From the NCBI GenBank assembly GCA_019459525.1, contig JAIBEY010000116.1:1-34618 (forward strand): a stretch of DNA of 34,618 bases, read 5' to 3'. The stretch's first letter is position 1. Every line of letters begins with the position of its first letter. A program made the position numbers and the translations under genes. This stretch comes from Prolixibacteraceae bacterium. GTDB lineage: Bacteria; Bacteroidota; Bacteroidia; Bacteroidales; Prolixibacteraceae. Positions 27,423-34,320 of the stretch are shown one piece after another. The notes under the pieces are model-generated. The model saw only the letters and a list, made by a program, of their open reading frames with translations, made no database searches and had not been told where the DNA came from.

Positions 27423-29300
27423 TTACTCGAAACTTAACGGTTCTGGCCCTCGGGGCTGAAACGAATAGAACCGGTTTTTCGAAACTTCGTCGAGAATAAA
27501 TCCGATGGAACTCACATCGCTCGGGTGATTGGGATAATAAGCCAGCCTGATCTGGATGGTTTTAAAAATGAGGTTTTCATTTCGGATACGAAGTCCCAAA
27601 CCCAATCCGGCGTAGTAACTTTGTTTGAAAATGGATTCGTTAGCGGGTCCAACAATTCCAGCATCAAAAAAAGAGAAAAATGCGGTCTGGAAATTCAGGA
27701 TGGATCGTTTCTGAAAAAAAACATTTTCCACATTCAGCGTTAAACGCTGTTTGCCTTTGCCAATGCGGCTTCCAAATCCACGGATGCCATCACTGTTTCT
27801 CAGCAAAAGATCTTCAATTTCGAAACGGTTTATTCCCAGGGTGTAATTTAATTTGATAAACTGACGGGATTGATTTCTCCAAACCTGAAATAATGGCGAT
27901 ATGTAATTGATTTTTAAATCTGCCATGCCCTGTTCTGCTCCATCCGGTTTCCAAAAGGTCCCCAATCCAAAAGAGGTGAAAAAATAAAAAGGTTTGTTTT
28001 TAAAAAGGTTTCCTGTTGACAGATACAAATGCGAGTACCACCGGTCTCCAAACTCATTGTGGTCATATCCGAAAACCAATTCGTGCAGGTAACCTTTAGG
28101 GATGTCTTCGGTAATTCCATAGCTGTAAATCAGGTAATCACGAACGTACGACCTTCTGGAAAAACTTAGGCTGCCCAAATAGAATGTACTGTTTGCAAAG
28201 AATTGATTGCCGTCGTTATCTGGCTGTGGGCGGTCGTAAAAAGAAGTATATCTGACTCTTCCTGAAATATTTATCTGGAAACGGCTGTCGTTTGGATTTG
28301 TCGCACGTTTTAAACGCCTACCATACCAGGTATCCAGAAAAAGGTAATCCAGCGGATAGTCAATCAGCACATGATCACTCAGATTAATGCGGTCCGATCT
28401 AAAACTTCTCAAAAAAGTCAATCCCCCGGCATAAACCGATTGGGGTCGAAGAAAATCGCGCTCAAAGGAAAAGAACATTCCTTCGCGGAGGTAAGTATTG
28501 GTATATCCAGCCGAAAAATCGAAGAATCCTCCCTTTACGTTATTGATTGCATAGTAGGCTTCAAATCCGATATGAGGTGTCAAATCGGTATGTGCTATTA
28601 ATTTTGTGCCAATTTCATGACCTACACCTAGTATATTTTTGTCATAAATGCCGATTTCGCCTTTATTGATACTCCCAATATTTCCTGAAATGCCTAAAGA
28701 AAAAACATCTTTGGTGAGAATAAGAATGTCAACCATGTTGTCGTTAAATGGATGCGGCTTAATAATTATTCTGACATCCTTTAAATAAGGTAAACTTCTC
28801 AGCAGACGTTCATTGTCCATGATAAGGTCCGGGTCAAGCTCTTGCCCTTCTTTTATCCATAGATTTTTTCGTATAACATAAAGGTTCGATTTTGAGTGTA
28901 GTTTGTTGGCCCATTTTTCAAGCCAGATATTGGTAATCTTAGCTGTATCAGTAAAATCAGGACCAAAAACGTCAAGAGATTTTATACTGATTGAGCCTAT
29001 GGTTTTATTCTCGAAAGTTTTATAATATTCATAAGAAGATAAATCACCGTTTACGGTTTGGTTTTCGGTGCAAATAACCCAATTGTATAACCATTTGGTT
29101 ACTTTGTGGCGCGAGGCTTTCATTGCAAGGCTGTCATAGAACAACTCCGGACTATTTTTCACGATTACTACTCCTAATGAGTCATTTTTTAACATAGGAA
29201 TATCCTTACCCTTCAGGGATAACGCAGAAAGAATCAGGAAAGTAATCCACATTAATCTCATCATATACCAACGACCTTTTCGAATTTTAAAATTATTCAA
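27423..29300 (-). CDS. Omp85/BamA-like outer-membrane protein (POTRA plus beta-barrel)
   Basis: A 625-residue protein with an N-terminal signal sequence; the start is either 29300 or the internal Met at about residue 13, giving MMRLMWITFLILSAL. A POTRA-like segment at about 135-205 contains LWIKEGQELDPDLIMDNERLLRSLPYLKDVRI followed by VDILILTKDVFSLG, the usual link from a POTRA to an Omp85 barrel. The remaining ~420 residues are alternating aromatic strands (GFFDFSAGYTNTYLREGMFFSFERDFL; IRGFGSRIGKGKQRLTLNVENVFF). It resembles single-POTRA Omp85 relatives of Bacteroidota rather than the essential five-POTRA BamA. Its client is unknown. It is divergent from the TonB-like gene (122 bp between starts). 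Confidence 0.75.
   Translation of the reverse strand: MNNFKIRKGRWYMMRLMWITFLILSALSLKGKDIPMLKNDSLGVVIVKNSPELFYDSLAMKASRHKVTKWLYNWVICTENQTVNGDLSSYEYYKTFENKTIGSISIKSLDVFGPDFTDTAKITNIWLEKWANKLHSKSNLYVIRKNLWIKEGQELDPDLIMDNERLLRSLPYLKDVRIIIKPHPFNDNMVDILILTKDVFSLGISGNIGSINKGEIGIYDKNILGVGHEIGTKLIAHTDLTPHIGFEAYYAINNVKGGFFDFSAGYTNTYLREGMFFSFERDFLRPQSVYAGGLTFLRSFRSDRINLSDHVLIDYPLDYLFLDTWYGRRLKRATNPNDSRFQINISGRVRYTSFYDRPQPDNDGNQFFANSTFYLGSLSFSRRSYVRDYLIYSYGITEDIPKGYLHELVFGYDHNEFGDRWYSHLYLSTGNLFKNKPFYFFTSFGLGTFWKPDGAEQGMADLKINYISPLFQVWRNQSRQFIKLNYTLGINRFEIEDLLLRNSDGIRGFGSRIGKGKQRLTLNVENVFFQKRSILNFQTAFFSFFDAGIVGPANESIFKQSYYAGLGLGLRIRNENLIFKTIQIRLAYYPNHPSDVSSIGFILDEVSKNRFYSFQPRGPEPLSFE
27438..27479 (+). terminator. 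Possible terminator for the S9 peptidase gene, inside the Omp85-like coding end
   Basis: CGGTTCT (27438-27444) pairs with AGAACCG (27467-27473), an inner GCCC/GGGC pairing lies at 27446-27456, and TTTTT follows at 27475-27479. The structure starts 22 bp past the peptidase stop. It must also encode the last residues of the convergent gene. The loop is rather large, so confidence is moderate. Confidence 0.4.
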
Positions 29301-29422: not shown

Positions 29423-30157
29423 ATGTCTAGTATCAAAGAACTATATCGCAGAAATGTATATGGGGTAATGGGCACCCTTATCTTCCATATTTTATTGGTC
29501 GCCGGATTTCTGGTGGCCGAGTTAAACCTGAATGTTAAAATTGAAAAAGAGGAAGCCATCTTGCTCGATTTTACTGCTGCTCCTGAAAAAGAAGAAAAAA
29601 TTCAGGAACCGGAAAAATCCCCGGAAAAAAGAGAGGCCTCGGAAAATAGCACCTCAAATGACCGGAGTTCCGGGAGCAACAGGGCCGTAAATGAAGCATC
29701 GAAAAAGGACAAGTTTTTTGATGCTAATTACAATCGGGATGTTGAGGAAGCAAAGAAACTGGTTGCCGATGTGAATAAACAATTGTCGAAGAAAGTGGCT
29801 CCGGCAAAGAAATTTGAAATGCCGGAAGAAACTACTGAAGGACAGGACCCCGACTCGATAAAAAATGTTGTTTATTCAGGAAAAAGCAATATTCATTATT
29901 TCCTCGAAAACCGATATCATACCCGATTACCTATTCCTGTTTATTTGGCCAGGGGTGGTGGTACTATAACAGTTGACATACAAGTTGACCGATCAGGGAG
30001 AGTGATCAAAGCAGAAGCGAGAGCTGCAAAAAATCTTAATGATCCGATGTTACCGGTTTATGCCGTTCAGGCAGCAGAACGTACCGTATTTAACTCAGAA
30101 TCAAAAGCTCCTGCTGTTCAGCGAGGAACAATTACTTACCAATTTGTTGCGCAGTAA
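29423..30157 (+). CDS. TonB-like energy transducer protein
   Basis: A 244-residue protein with a short cytoplasmic N-terminus, one membrane helix (about 14-34, VMGTLIFHILLVAGFLVAELNL) and a long charged Lys/Glu/Pro-rich periplasmic linker (50-150). The C-terminal TonB-like domain has GGGTITVDIQVDRSGRVIKAEARAA and ends RGTITYQFVAQ. The TonB-box-binding fold is recognisable, although the linker is acidic/basic rather than the classic Pro-rich run. It probably couples ExbBD energy to an outer-membrane receptor, or is one of the many TonB paralogues of Bacteroidota. No exbBD or receptor gene is in the window. Confidence 0.8.
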   Translation: MSSIKELYRRNVYGVMGTLIFHILLVAGFLVAELNLNVKIEKEEAILLDFTAAPEKEEKIQEPEKSPEKREASENSTSNDRSSGSNRAVNEASKKDKFFDANYNRDVEEAKKLVADVNKQLSKKVAPAKKFEMPEETTEGQDPDSIKNVVYSGKSNIHYFLENRYHTRLPIPVYLARGGGTITVDIQVDRSGRVIKAEARAAKNLNDPMLPVYAVQAAERTVFNSESKAPAVQRGTITYQFVAQ

Positions 30158-30192
30158 CATTTAATTGATGTTTAGGTCACAATAATTTCAAT

Positions 30193-30327
30193 ATCATTTT
30201 ACAATTATTTTCGAATTGTTTCGACTCAATGGCGTAAATTTGTAATACATTTTTTTTCATAAGTTTAGGTTTAGTTAGGTTAGTTAGTTTAAGAGAGAAA
30301 AGGTAGGACAGAGGTTCTACCTTTTTG
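30193..30327. repeat. Copy 1 of a duplicated leader/sRNA-like element
   Basis: The core (30238-30327) shares 48 consecutive identical bases with copy 2, then differs by a 4-nt insertion and one base. Homology fades upstream to about 30193. Plus-strand reading: an exact -7 box TAAATTTG (30235-30242), about 80 nt without an ATG or GTG, then an intrinsic terminator (30298-30325 plus T-run). Minus-strand reading: a hairpin, a G-free leader, then ATG at 30260 opening a 27-codon frame MKKNVLQIYAIESKQFENN... that ends at 30177. That N-terminus resembles the start of SusC-like receptors as I remember them in related genomes, but the frame stops before any signal peptide. Confidence 0.75.
30298..30325 (+). 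terminator. Terminator hairpin of copy 1
   Basis: AAAAGGTAGGAC (30298-30309), loop AGAG, GTTCTACCTTTT (30314-30325), with the T-tract continuing to TTTTTG. The stem is 12 bp with one G-U pair when read as plus-strand RNA; on the minus strand the same position would be an A-C mismatch. It is also the first terminator-like structure downstream of the TonB-like gene. Confidence 0.6.
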
Positions 30328-30405
30328 TTTTTTACGACCTTATTCTCTGCATCGAAAACGTAGTCTTGACCAATCATCAGTTCTTAATAATCAGATAAGT
30401 TTAAC

Positions 30406-30536
30406 ATCATTTAACGATTGTTTTGATATTTTTTGAATTCCATAAAGTAGATTTGTAATACATTTTTTTTCATAAGTTTAGGTTTAGTTAGGTTAGTTTA
30501 AGAGAGAAAAGGTAGGACAGAGGTCCTACCTTTTTA
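30406..30536. repeat. Copy 2 of the duplicated leader/sRNA-like element
   Basis: The offset from copy 1 is exactly 213 bp up to the 4-nt deletion and 209 bp after it. Plus strand: -7 box TAGATTTG (30448-30455), TTTTG 22 bp upstream, and a perfect terminator at 30507-30535. Minus strand: ATG at 30473 opens MKKNVLQIYFMEFKKYQNNR and stops at 30411-30413. The residues beyond that stop (MMLNL) still align with copy 1 (MILKL). The transcribed or leader part is far better conserved than the flank, so the core appears to be under constraint or recently copied. Confidence 0.75.
30507..30535 (+). terminator. Terminator hairpin of copy 2
   Basis: AAAAGGTAGGAC (30507-30518), loop AGAG, GTCCTACCTTTT (30523-30534), a perfect 12-bp stem followed by TTTTTATTTT. 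It is a textbook intrinsic terminator on the plus strand. Read on the minus strand it becomes a 5'-leader hairpin. Confidence 0.65.
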
Positions 30537-30847
30537 TTTTTGCTCCAATTCTGAATCTTTCCGCAAACCTAAGTTGGAAATCTGCAAATATACTTCGGAA
30601 CAATATTACTTCATTACCGCTTTCTTTTTTAGTTATAAGTAAATTCGCAGAGCCTATGGGTTCAATGTAAGTTCTTTACCGAATTGGTTATGGAAAAATG
30701 CTGCTAGCGTTTGTGTAGTGCTTATGATACGTTTATTTTCGGAATAAAATATATTTGAATTATTTGTTTTTTCAACATTTTATACTGATTTTTAAAAATC
30801 GAAAAAACTTCAGATTCAACTAAGTTTTTACGCCGGGAAACGAAATC
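30537..30847. other. Gap upstream of the sigma-factor gene
   Basis: No gene seen. It contains minus-strand -7 boxes TAGGTTTG (plus 30564-30571) and TATATTTG (plus 30585-30592), which could drive minus-strand transcription into copy 2. A plus-strand TATATTTG (30750-30757) could give the sigma gene a leader of about 100 nt. Confidence 0.4.
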
Positions 30848-30857: not shown

Positions 30858-31442
30858 ATGATTGATTACTCAAACCAGGAACTTTTAAATGGGATTCTTC
30901 GAAATGATACGATTGTTTTACAATCCATTTATAAGAATTTCTATTCGAAGATTAATTTTTTCATCAAAAAAAACAATGGAGATGATGATGATGCAAATGA
31001 TATTTTTCAGGAAGCAATCATTATTATCTACCGTAAACTAAAGGCTAATGACTTGGTCTTAGATTGTACCTTTGAGACATATCTATACTCTGTTTGTCGT
31101 TTTTTATGGCTCAAACAACTGGAACGACGAAAACTGGAAAAGGAAAAGATCAAGGATAATCACGAATATAACGAAGACATCTACGATGATAATTTAGAAA
31201 AAGTAGTTGATTTAAACGATCGCTATAGATTGTTTCAGAAACATTTTGCCAATCTGGGCAAAGATTGTCAGAAAGTCTTGCAATTGTATTTTGACAAGGT
31301 CCCACTGAAGAGCATTGCTCAGATTATGGGTTTTAAGAGTGAAAAGTATGCTAAAAAACGTAAGTTTAAATGTAAGGAATACCTTATCAAGAGCATAAAG
31401 CAGGATTTAGAGTATAAAAAGATTTTAAGTGGAGAACATTAG
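30858..31442 (+). CDS. ECF-type sigma-70 family RNA polymerase sigma factor
   Basis: A 194-residue protein. Region 2 lies at about 20-95: VLQSIYKNFYSKINFFIKKN, then DDANDIFQEAIIIIYRKL. Region 4 lies at about 130-185, with LGKDCQKVLQLYFDKVPLKSIAQIMGFKSEKYAKKRKFKCKEYL (helix-turn-helix). There is no anti-sigma (FecR-like) gene beside it. Instead the convergent neighbour is a TPR-CHAT protein, with one base between the two stop codons. Sigma factors of this small group are often found beside CHAT/TPR genes in Bacteroidota, as far as I recall, so the pairing is probably functional. The start is fixed by family similarity (NQELLNGILRND), although it leaves almost no leader after the best promoter. 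Confidence 0.88.
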   Translation: MIDYSNQELLNGILRNDTIVLQSIYKNFYSKINFFIKKNNGDDDDANDIFQEAIIIIYRKLKANDLVLDCTFETYLYSVCRFLWLKQLERRKLEKEKIKDNHEYNEDIYDDNLEKVVDLNDRYRLFQKHFANLGKDCQKVLQLYFDKVPLKSIAQIMGFKSEKYAKKRKFKCKEYLIKSIKQDLEYKKILSGEH

Positions 31443-31443
31443 A

Positions 31444-34320
31444 TTAATTTGCAGACCTCGATTTTCGGGGTCTTTTTCGTATATACCAATCGGCAAAAAG
31501 TAATAACCCGGCAACTATTATAAAAATAACGAAATACACGCGTTTGCTTGTATAAAGTGGTTCTGAATTTCCGATATTCACGTATCCTAACCAATAGTGT
31601 GGATGAGAAGTGAGTGGGTCAGAAGCACTGAGGTGTTTCAGTTTTGCCATTCTTAGGGCAACATCTTTTCGCTTTCCTTTGGATAAAAATGAGTAAAAGT
31701 CCTCCATGATTTTTACACCTGACTTATCTTCGACTTGCCAAAGAGTCATCACAATAGACGGGCACCCGGCAAAGATAAAACCCCGAGCCATGCTCATCAC
31801 ACCTTCCCCTTTTTGCAATTTACCGGTACCAGTCTCACAAGCACTCAGCACTGCCAAACGGGCATTAAGCTTCATGTTATAAATCTCATAGGTATTCAAA
31901 TAACCATCTTCACTAAAATCAGGCTCAGGTTTAGTAAAGACAAGTTTAGAAAACATGGGTAGGCTATCGTTTATAATGGTGTGCATAGCTAAATGCAAAA
32001 CATCATAATTGGCGGCCTTGTCTTTAAATGTTTGCTCCTGAGCGAACTGGTTTGTGAAGGTGTCGGCATTTATAAATCTGGAAATACTTTTGACTTCTTC
32101 GTTTGCGCCAGGTAACGGAGCCAGATGTCGTGTGATCATTGTTTCCGGATCAGTATAAGATGTATTAGGGTCATAGAGCGGCGAGAATACAAGCAAGCTT
32201 TTTTTGCTTCGTTTATTTTTATAAGCATAGTCGTATAAGAAAGTTGCGGAATAACTGTAGTTTATGGCAAAATCGCGAATCAAATATTTTAAGTCTCTGA
32301 AATTCATTTGACTTGTGTCGGGCAATTCAGTCAACAATGCATCAAAAGGGATATACGAAAGCTTATCTTGGGGAATGATAGTCAGGTCCTTCCCGTTTAT
32401 TCTGCTTTTCAGTGGTTCTAGCAGTTTGGCATATAAGCCATAGCCAGATGTCGCATATTTAATGAAATCCTTCTTCTTTGTAAATAAATAGTTGGGGTTT
32501 GTAAGGAAGTCGAAGACTATTTGGATGTTATTTCCAAAAGAGGAGTCGATTTGCTCCATAGATAAATTCACCGAGTCTTTCGTAATCAGAAATCGGTAAA
32601 GTTCCCCATGAGATGTTCCAACTTCCGGTTCGTTTACAAAGAATTCAATCAATGCCTGACGAGTGCTTAAATTAGCCTGAATTTCATTTACACCAACAAT
32701 TTTGTTCTCATACTTCAAAGCATAGTAACTGGGATAAAGTTTTTCAAAAGAATTTATAAGCTTATTGTAATCTTCGGTGTATCTGAAAATTTTAGAAGAG
32801 TATAAATTCACTTTTTGCGAATCAGGTTTCTCAGCATGATTTTCCTGGATCAACATGGATGTGTAGTTTGTAATGTTGTTCTTAAAATAGCTTTCCCGTT
32901 TTAACAGTGAATCCGGTATCCCACCAAACTCTTTTGCTTTTACATCTTTAATTGATGCCAGTAAATTAGACGATCTGCTTCGTTCCGAGAATTCAAATGC
33001 GTGATTAATATATTCCTGATTCTTGGTTTGATTATATAGCTTATATGAAATTCTTATGGCATCGTAATAAATGGATCCGAAATTCTGAGTAAGAAAATAT
33101 TTGCTATCCTCACTCTCAAATCCAATCTGGAGACGATGAATTACTTGTGTTGCTTTGTTCAAAGAACTTAAACCAGCGTCAAAGAACTTTTTTGAGTTTC
33201 TTTTGTCAAACTCCGACAAATAGATGTCAGCCAATTTGTCCATTGCAATCGCCTTTTTTCTGAAGACCTCAATCAGTTGATACTCTGAAATTACATTTTC
33301 CAATTTTGGATTGACAAACGGATCCTTTATATCGAAAGAATCAACTAATGCCACTATCGCATTTTGATAATATTGAATGGCTTCATTGAGGTATTTTTTT
33401 CGTTGAGCTCGAAAATCATCAATCTGGCTGGCTTCCAGGTTCTTCATGAAATAGTAATCCCCAAAGATTTTTTGAACTTGAGCAAAAGAGGAGCTTTTTT
33501 TTCCATAAAACTTTAAAACTATAGCTTTTGCCTTGGAAGAAAACAAGAATGCGTTATTGTAATCTTTTATGGAAACTAAGAACGAAGCGTAAGATAAGTA
33601 TTGGTCACCCAATTCAACATTATTTTCTCCATATAAATCGATCCAAGCTTTTATGGCATACAAATAATTTTGAGTTGCTAATTCATATTCTCCTTGTTTG
33701 AAGTAAGCTAAAGCAATTAAATCATAAAACCGAGGCCTAAGCTGAGTTGTAGTATATTTTAGATTTGATTTGGCAAATCGAATTGCTTCCTTGTTCTGTC
33801 CGAGATTTAATTGTGTTTCAACCAAGTTGTATTTTAGGGATTGATATGCCGTCGCATATTTAATGGAATCTTTGCTAAGTATCAGAAATCCAAATTTTTG
33901 ATATTCTAAAGCTTTGTTGTAGTCACCCTTTAATTGGTGTATGTTCCCTAAATTTGAATATACCTTACCGAGCTCAGGAGAATCTTTCCCAAATTCATTT
34001 ATATATAAAGATTCTGCTCTTTTATAAGCCTCAATAGCTTTTTCTATATTCCCGAGATTTTTATATTGTATTCCGATATTGTTTATAATTGTAGCTAATC
34101 TATAACTATTTGCTCCAAATATTTTTTCACGAAGCTTATATAGCTGTTCAAAATTATTAATAGCCTCATCAAAGTCCCCAATTCTTCCTGCTTTTGTACC
34201 TTTCTCGATAAGCTTAATAGACAATAAACTGTCCTGAACAGATAATCTATATTCTTGGGCATATGCTAACGAAGAAAAGAATAGCACGATTACAATAAAA
34301 ACAACTCTTCTCTTCATCAT
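31444..34320 (-). CDS. Membrane-anchored TPR-CHAT domain protein (putative caspase-like protease)
   Basis: A 958-residue protein with a signal peptide (hydrophobic 6-20, AYAQ). Tetratricopeptide repeats run from about 28 to 430 (NNIGIQYKNLGNIEKAIEAYKRAESLY; SNLGNIHQLKGDYNKALEY), followed by a helical spacer. The C-terminal CHAT domain runs from about 640 to 915, with catalytic H780 in LHLAMHT and C828 in LSACETGTG, then GEGVMSMARGFIFAGCPSIVMTLW. A membrane helix at about 928-946 precedes a basic tail, so TPR and CHAT should face the periplasm. CHAT is a caspase/separase-like cysteine protease fold that often takes peptide or protein partners through TPRs. The gene is convergent with the sigma gene and divergent from a 42-codon GG-leader peptide gene (158 bp between starts). 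Confidence 0.92.
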   Translation of the reverse strand: MMKRRVVFIVIVLFFSSLAYAQEYRLSVQDSLLSIKLIEKGTKAGRIGDFDEAINNFEQLYKLREKIFGANSYRLATIINNIGIQYKNLGNIEKAIEAYKRAESLYINEFGKDSPELGKVYSNLGNIHQLKGDYNKALEYQKFGFLILSKDSIKYATAYQSLKYNLVETQLNLGQNKEAIRFAKSNLKYTTTQLRPRFYDLIALAYFKQGEYELATQNYLYAIKAWIDLYGENNVELGDQYLSYASFLVSIKDYNNAFLFSSKAKAIVLKFYGKKSSSFAQVQKIFGDYYFMKNLEASQIDDFRAQRKKYLNEAIQYYQNAIVALVDSFDIKDPFVNPKLENVISEYQLIEVFRKKAIAMDKLADIYLSEFDKRNSKKFFDAGLSSLNKATQVIHRLQIGFESEDSKYFLTQNFGSIYYDAIRISYKLYNQTKNQEYINHAFEFSERSRSSNLLASIKDVKAKEFGGIPDSLLKRESYFKNNITNYTSMLIQENHAEKPDSQKVNLYSSKIFRYTEDYNKLINSFEKLYPSYYALKYENKIVGVNEIQANLSTRQALIEFFVNEPEVGTSHGELYRFLITKDSVNLSMEQIDSSFGNNIQIVFDFLTNPNYLFTKKKDFIKYATSGYGLYAKLLEPLKSRINGKDLTIIPQDKLSYIPFDALLTELPDTSQMNFRDLKYLIRDFAINYSYSATFLYDYAYKNKRSKKSLLVFSPLYDPNTSYTDPETMITRHLAPLPGANEEVKSISRFINADTFTNQFAQEQTFKDKAANYDVLHLAMHTIINDSLPMFSKLVFTKPEPDFSEDGYLNTYEIYNMKLNARLAVLSACETGTGKLQKGEGVMSMARGFIFAGCPSIVMTLWQVEDKSGVKIMEDFYSFLSKGKRKDVALRMAKLKHLSASDPLTSHPHYWLGYVNIGNSEPLYTSKRVYFVIFIIVAGLLLFADWYIRKRPRKSRSAN
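31453..31477 (+). terminator. Intrinsic terminator of the sigma gene, inside the CHAT coding end
   Basis: AGACCTCG (31453-31460), loop ATTTT, CGGGGTCT (31466-31473), then T-rich to 31477. The 8-bp stem has one G-U pair and starts 11 bp past the sigma-factor stop. The same bases encode the basic C-terminal tail of the CHAT protein (RPRKSRSAN). Confidence 0.7.

Follow-up and report, generated by a model that had tools for sequence, protein, structure and literature searches.

Twin predicted small RNA genes in a Prolixibacteraceae genome carry a 5′ seed complementary to SusC translation starts

SusC importers are a main polysaccharide uptake route of Bacteroidota. Small RNAs (sRNAs) with 5′ seeds that pair near the starts of outer-membrane protein mRNAs are well known from enterobacteria (MicA, RybB, OmrA/OmrB); they work like the RNA described here but are Hfq-dependent, unrelated in sequence and from another phylum. 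The closest described system is FopS of Bacteroides thetaiotaomicron, with 14 paralogues, a single-stranded 5′ seed, a terminator and a canonical promoter; one of the 14 is derived from a 3′ UTR (PMC11697453). FopS-10 pairs at the start of the susC gene BT_3983 and stops BT_3983 translation in vitro, and the protein RbpB binds FopS directly and antagonises it (PMC11697453). Conservation of FopS is described in that account within Bacteroidaceae (PMC11697453). GibS of the same species has a seed element (called R1 there) in common with FopS and pairs at translation initiation regions, but has other targets, a second seed (R2) and a different promoter motif; this published description sets it apart from the sRNA reported here (PMC11697453). 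FopS control of SusC has been worked out in one species; here we describe what appears to be a divergent branch in Prolixibacteraceae.

The window (the whole stretch of 34,618 nt that was analysed) corresponds to contig C64 of a genome of 5.54 Mb, which is assembled in 116 contigs. It contains a repeat pair at 30182-30332 and 30395-30541, with a start-to-start offset of 213, in the following surroundings.

27423-29300, minus strand: 625-aa protein with a weak resemblance to BamA, an outer-membrane assembly factor (25.6 bits, cut-off 297)
29423-30157, plus strand: TonB-like gene, 244 aa, directly upstream of copy 1 (TIGR01352, below cut-off)
30186-30203, plus strand: degenerate direct repeat of copy 1, TTTCAATATCATTTTACA (by inspection; position fixed in other copies)
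30235-30242, plus strand: -7 box of copy 1, TAAATTTG (exact TAnnTTTG in the sequence)
30246-30333, plus strand: sRNA copy 1, predicted transcript with approximate ends (anatomy, model R1)
30250-30274, plus strand: 5′ seed of copy 1, U8-CAU-AAGUUUAGGUUUAG (complementarity to SusC translation starts)
30298-30325, plus strand: terminator hairpin of copy 1 and, behind it, a T run to 30333 (sequence, stem covariation)
30400-30415, plus strand: direct repeat TTTAACATCATTTAAC, 48 nt before the -7 box of copy 2 (pattern across copies)
30448-30455, plus strand: -7 box of copy 2, TAGATTTG (exact TAnnTTTG in the sequence)
30459-30541, plus strand: sRNA copy 2, predicted transcript with approximate ends (model R1; RF04319 below cut-off)
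30463-30487, plus strand: 5′ seed of copy 2, likewise U8-CAU-AAGUUUAGGUUUAG
30507-30534, plus strand: terminator hairpin of copy 2 and, behind it, a T run to 30541 (sequence, stem covariation)
30858-31442, plus strand: downstream gene for an ECF-type sigma factor (TIGR02937, Sigma70_r2)
31444-34320, minus strand: 958-aa protein with TPR repeats and a C-terminal CHAT domain (domain search)

A preliminary description of this DNA had reported two near-identical copies 213 apart, each with an exact -7 box and an intrinsic terminator, and the alignment and the features above bear this out. Segment D1 (30182-30285 and 30395-30498) has 83% ungapped identity and segment D2 (30275-30332 and 30484-30541) 91%. 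The alignment of the copies has a single 4-nt gap in the linker and a single T/C change in the stem, which, as had been stated, keeps pairing in plus-strand RNA (G-U in copy 1, G-C in copy 2). Model R1, which has both copies in its training set, matches copy 1 at 30248-30335 with 114.2 bits and copy 2 at 30461-30544 with 104.6 bits. The predicted mean unpaired probability of the first 45 nt is 0.67 for copy 1 and 0.51 for copy 2; the 5′ part of copy 2 is predicted to be partly paired, which counts against a free seed.

The RNA is almost certainly encoded on the plus strand, as an sRNA gene. The strand was judged on 106 distinct copies with the exact 24-nt core, taken from the collected loci with L035-L056 left out and largely from Prolixibacteraceae. 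Copies with an altered core or too near the end of a locus are excluded from this set by construction, and because altered cores are excluded we make no claim of seed invariance from it. TAnnTTTG lies 15-17 nt before the core in 101/106 copies, and a -33 TTTG-like element is present in only 50/101. A terminator stem of at least 7 bp is found in 105/106 copies, in about 40 arm and loop versions. On 32 mixed copies RNAalifold returned 0 pairs, since their hairpins differ in length and fall out of register in that alignment; covariation was therefore scored on 14 sequences of one architecture, chosen by the analyst. In this set 168/168 cells pair and both sides change in 4/12 pairs. The covariation score is 0.337, against 0.168 (sd 0.020) when shuffled and at most 0.137 when slid; further pair types, one of five covariation measures, are not above shuffles (9 versus 9.8).

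The minus strand can be read as a cis-acting leader with a 5′ hairpin, a G-free leader and the coding start, or its remnant, of a receptor gene (MKKNVLQ...). Hairpin, leader and ATG AAA AAA AAT are indeed readable, and the start resembles the SusC starts of the genome. The MKKN frames noted in the preliminary description thus exist, but they end after 27 and 20 aa in the window and span 4-27 aa, most often 8 aa, in the 106 copies. Copies before long in-frame receptor genes, which had been proposed as the mark of a leader, did not turn up: no minus-strand frame exceeds 27 aa, and on this ground the leader or coding reading falls. The T runs after the hairpin and TAnnTTTG before the element (101/106) indicate the plus strand, and 173 of the 1403 pairs across 105 stems are plus-strand G-U pairs, which are impossible in minus-strand RNA. 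Boxes, T runs, G-U pairs, covariation and the short minus-strand frame together place the RNA on the plus strand, and a minus-strand leader is scarcely credible. The minus strand is non-coding; it resembles a SusC start because the seed is complementary to SusC translation starts. The two readings that had been said to predict opposite strands do not compete, the RNA being on the plus strand and the minus-strand 'gene start' mirroring its likely targets. Annotators should be aware that the strand opposite an sRNA can look like the start of a gene. The other reading, twin sRNA genes of about 80 nt on the plus strand, is well supported by copies in unrelated genomic places, a fixed -7 box, a terminator and compensatory stem changes.

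A third close copy lies at C93:28683 and a divergent fourth at C40:5695, so that the genome has several paralogues (three close copies and one divergent). With 136 nt of copy 2 as the query and a threshold of E <= 0.001, matches were found in 64/101 genomes. These include 56 of the 61 Prolixibacteraceae genomes (own genome included) and 8 weak matches beyond the family (E 2e-5 to 1e-3). Chance local duplication, the outcome that would have emptied the preliminary description of interest, is contradicted because the core recurs elsewhere in the genome and in these other genomes. An exact 33-nt pattern occurs in 102 stretches of the named genome collection. Among the matches listed (80 of 102), those titled by family or genus are mostly Prolixibacteraceae, the genera listed being Mangrovibacterium, Sunxiuqinia, Prolixibacter, Mariniphaga, Puteibacter and Gaoshiqia, with the cultured relatives Mangrovibacterium marinum DSM 28823, Sunxiuqinia elliptica and Prolixibacter denitrificans DSM 27267 among them. 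Many titles give no more than Bacteroidia or Bacteroidota, and a few MAGs, whose labels may be wrong, carry the name Chitinophaga, Odoribacter or Chlorobiota. Viral contigs gave 0 matches to the exact 28-nt seed pattern. Tandem copies recur in L145 and L177. Tandem sRNA duplication behind a TonB-like gene is seen in at least three genomes, with spacings of 213 (window), 185 and 352 nt.

Upstream of the promoter lies a direct repeat, a TTTA-like half with TTTAAC 10 nt on. It is found 48/49 nt before the -7 box in 77/101 copies against 0.3 expected in mononucleotide shuffles, for a pattern chosen after seeing the sequences (the first regular expression gave 49/106, the second 77/101). Genome-wide, the strict form of the pattern has a single site, at the C93 copy. 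The repeat is likely to be a site for an activator or other regulator, although putative. The TonB-like protein upstream scores 22.8 bits with NCBIfam TIGR01352 (E 8.5e-5, cut-off 27.1) and matches nothing in Pfam at E 0.001. In 37/106 copies a same-strand homologue ends at most 600 nt upstream, and a homologue of the ECF sigma factor (TIGR02937 54.5 bits, cut-off 42.9; Sigma70_r2 27.5 bits) lies downstream on the same strand in 26/106, many loci being too short to judge the rest. The link to a dedicated regulator and a functional tie to TonB are suggestive only. The BamA-like 625-aa gene is placed upstream of the TonB-like gene, a place kept in many relatives.

This neighbourhood bears on whether the RNA has a gene of its own or is released by processing from the 3′ UTR of the TonB-like transcript. 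The core begins 90-97 nt after the end of the TonB-like match in 31/37 linked copies, and the one 3′ UTR-derived FopS sRNA offers a precedent. Against this stand the element's own -7 box in 101/106 copies, the upstream repeat at a fixed distance in 77/101, the C93 copy with other neighbours and the 69/106 copies that have no TonB-like gene within 600 nt, some of these loci being too short. We regard processing from the TonB-like mRNA as very improbable and treat each copy as a gene of its own.

Rfam at the gathering threshold finds nothing in the window. RF04319, the FopS entry, matches copy 2 over its full length (30463-30542) with 26.2 bits and copy 1 has no listed match; the cut-off is 56, and for this reason we do not file the window copies as FopS members. 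At E 0.001 RF04319 has no match in the own genome, and among 37 Prolixibacteraceae genomes it has one, in G014, at 38.6 bits and below cut-off. Model R1, which holds the window branch only, matches 19/22 of the loci found with RF04319 at the FopS place and strand with 18-47 bits, only 6/19 of them at E <= 0.01; L045, L049 and L054 were missed. L039, L040 and L043 score fairly with both models, L039 reaching 56.3 bits with RF04319 (over cut-off) and 32.1 bits with R1. Run genome-wide at E 0.001, R1 has no match in 12 genomes from other families, and neither model finds the other's main members. Some permissive Rfam matches (MicC, STnc320, SpF25 and others), a few with E values below that of FopS, were judged to reflect a terminator plus U run and come from unrelated phyla; some of them are on the minus strand. 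The flavobacterial sRNA Rfp18, as far as its published description goes, is unrelated (PMC9723704).

The likeness to FopS extends to the single-stranded 5′ seed and Rho-independent terminator, the canonical -7 promoter, several copies per genome, the seed UUUUUCAU...UUAG.UUUA..GGUUA with complementarity across susC start codons, and an RRM_1 protein in the genome, here a single one with a Gly-rich tail (L090). The branches differ in the bases right after CAU (AAGUUUAGG in the window, GGUAUUAGA in FopS), which fit the SusC starts of each lineage. In the window branch, unlike FopS, the linker is longer, the genome has 3 + 1 divergent copies rather than 14, a TTTAAC direct repeat lies upstream, and there is a recurrent place behind a TonB-like gene. 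Homology with FopS is probable, and the intermediate sequences suggest a divergent sister branch that would work alike. FopS loci of other families (L035-L038, L044, L046, L047, L052) carry, immediately upstream of the -7 box, a palindrome-like ATGTTG..AACATA. By eye it is present in 8/12 inspected Bacteroidaceae-type FopS loci, which do not have the TTTAAC repeat; it is possibly the site of a bile-responsive regulator. In a literature search, weak in that part of it was too broad, none of the papers listed describes an sRNA of this kind in Prolixibacteraceae.

The seed was compared with the SusC starts of the own genome, which has 56 SusC genes by TIGR04056 (58 rows). Leaving out two second pieces and two genes cut by contig ends (C79, C75), 54 starts were used, each taken as the 5′-most in-frame ATG and chosen blind to the seed; some of these assignments are bound to be wrong. 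For comparison, 201 other genes were taken as ORFs of at least 150 aa from the window and 14 arbitrarily picked stretches of the own genome, two of which were chosen for holding sRNA copies. Many SusC genes begin CAAATTTATGAAAAAAA or close to it. The 15-nt seed complement AAAYTTATGAAAAAA, with one G-U allowed, occurs 20 times genome-wide (reversed control 0): at the three sRNA copies, at 14 SusC starts by coordinate and at three other places. One of these three, C3:166134, is at an in-frame ATG read as a lipoprotein start; the remaining two are at no listed ORF start of at least 60 aa. Unbroken pairing of at least 15 nt is found at 14/54 SusC starts and 0/201 other gene starts (p 8e-11). The exact site is absent from the other 40/54, and when the complement is extended to 22 nt, with up to 3 mismatches allowed, the three sRNA copies are its sole matches in the genome. 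Outside the site, whose own identity among the 14 genes is fixed by the choice of pattern, the 14 genes compare with other genes at 35% versus 29% identity (-40..-13), 42% versus 32% (-12..-7) and 27% versus 30% (+12..+24). As the flanks are hardly more alike than those of other genes, the site is not merely a recent duplication of the start region.

We propose that the copies are genes for trans-acting sRNAs of about 83-88 nt. Each would be transcribed on the plus strand from a TAnnTTTG promoter of its own, probably with the help of an activator on the TTTAAC direct repeat. In the RNA, a 5′ seed with little structure (UUUUUUUUCAUAAGUUUAGG...) would be combined with a Rho-independent terminator. 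The seed is predicted to pair across the start codons of a subset of SusC mRNAs (AAAUUU-AUG-AAAAAAA) and so block ribosome loading, which would prevent the production of these importers when they are not wanted. This action may be modulated by an RRM protein resembling RbpB. The complementarity suggests that the sRNAs act as brakes on the making of SusC importers. This explanation as a whole is, in our judgement, very probable, and it is to the same degree probable that the SusC starts are real targets under repression.

The sRNA could be real and its complementarity to SusC incidental, with AAATTTATGAAAAAAA simply making a good start and the RNA acting on other targets or by titrating a protein (RRM). 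A-rich starts are common in SusC genes (34/54 begin ATGAAAAAA), and AAATTTATGAAAAAAA could be kept at them as a translation signal of its own; the direct binding of FopS by RbpB and the many sRNA-bearing relatives with few exact sites fit this too. However, AAAYTT precedes ATGAAA at 15/40 SusC starts and 0/51 other starts, and precedes ATGAAAAAA at 14/34 SusC starts and 0/5 others. The duplex energy separates SusC from other genes with an AUC of 0.816, and 100 shuffled seeds fall short of this (mean 0.43, maximum 0.66). The crossed test described below, in which each lineage's seed suits its own SusC starts, speaks against it as well, and we consider incidental complementarity unlikely. Pairing at SusC starts is the reading that we retain.

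The crossed test used duplex energies only and set the window genome against G062, which belongs to another family and whose RF04319 genes exceed the cut-off (20 SusC starts, 72 other starts). The window seed gives an AUC of 0.816 in its own genome and 0.514 in G062; the FopS seed of G062 gives 0.730 in G062 (p 9e-4) and 0.534 in the window genome. In these two genomes, then, SusC is told apart from other genes by the resident sRNA and not by the foreign one. The raw duplex energies of both seeds on the SusC starts of the window genome show no difference (p 0.11), and the separation emerges only on comparison with each genome's other genes. Unbroken runs of at least 12 nt are not enriched for FopS in G062 (2/20 SusC, 7/72 others). 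The test suggests, from two genomes only, that an sRNA with many targets co-evolves with them.

Exact sites, with sRNA copies included in all of these counts, number 557 in 61 Prolixibacteraceae genomes (reversed control 37) and 67 in 40 other genomes (reversed control 20), with medians of 6 and 1 per genome. The five Prolixibacteraceae genomes without an sRNA match have 0-2 each. As 23/56 sRNA-bearing Prolixibacteraceae genomes have at most 3, perfect sites are not universal, and the targets there would have to differ or be imperfect, which counts against the proposed action.

A wider reading is put forward tentatively, and we lean slightly against it in its full form. It would have a superfamily of SusC-braking sRNAs reaching beyond Bacteroidaceae, with the seed re-tuned in each lineage to the SusC start context, and in Prolixibacteraceae the TTTAAC regulator and the tie to the gene of a TonB-like energy transducer would make it a general device of outer-membrane importer homeostasis, not specific to a PUL. 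The analysis names 14 genes as predicted targets and one predicted site for a regulator, and it offers a natural experiment on seed and target change.

A divergent second sRNA class is seen in the genus at L130:5640-5765 (G000:C40) and L313:290-420 (G001:C227). It has a -7 box, a UUCAUAAGUU seed without a long U run, a longer UUAGUUAG linker and a terminator, and may have other targets. An R1 match at L117:8303-8378 (25.7 bits) was set aside; in its position where a gene ends and in its appearance it resembles an ordinary terminator. L043 (G014:C409) has three tandem sRNA-like copies at 1325-1395, 1499-1571 and 1691-1762. The two copies shown carry CAUAGAAAUAGG, not CAUAAGUUUAGG, after the U run and are seed-diversified paralogues.
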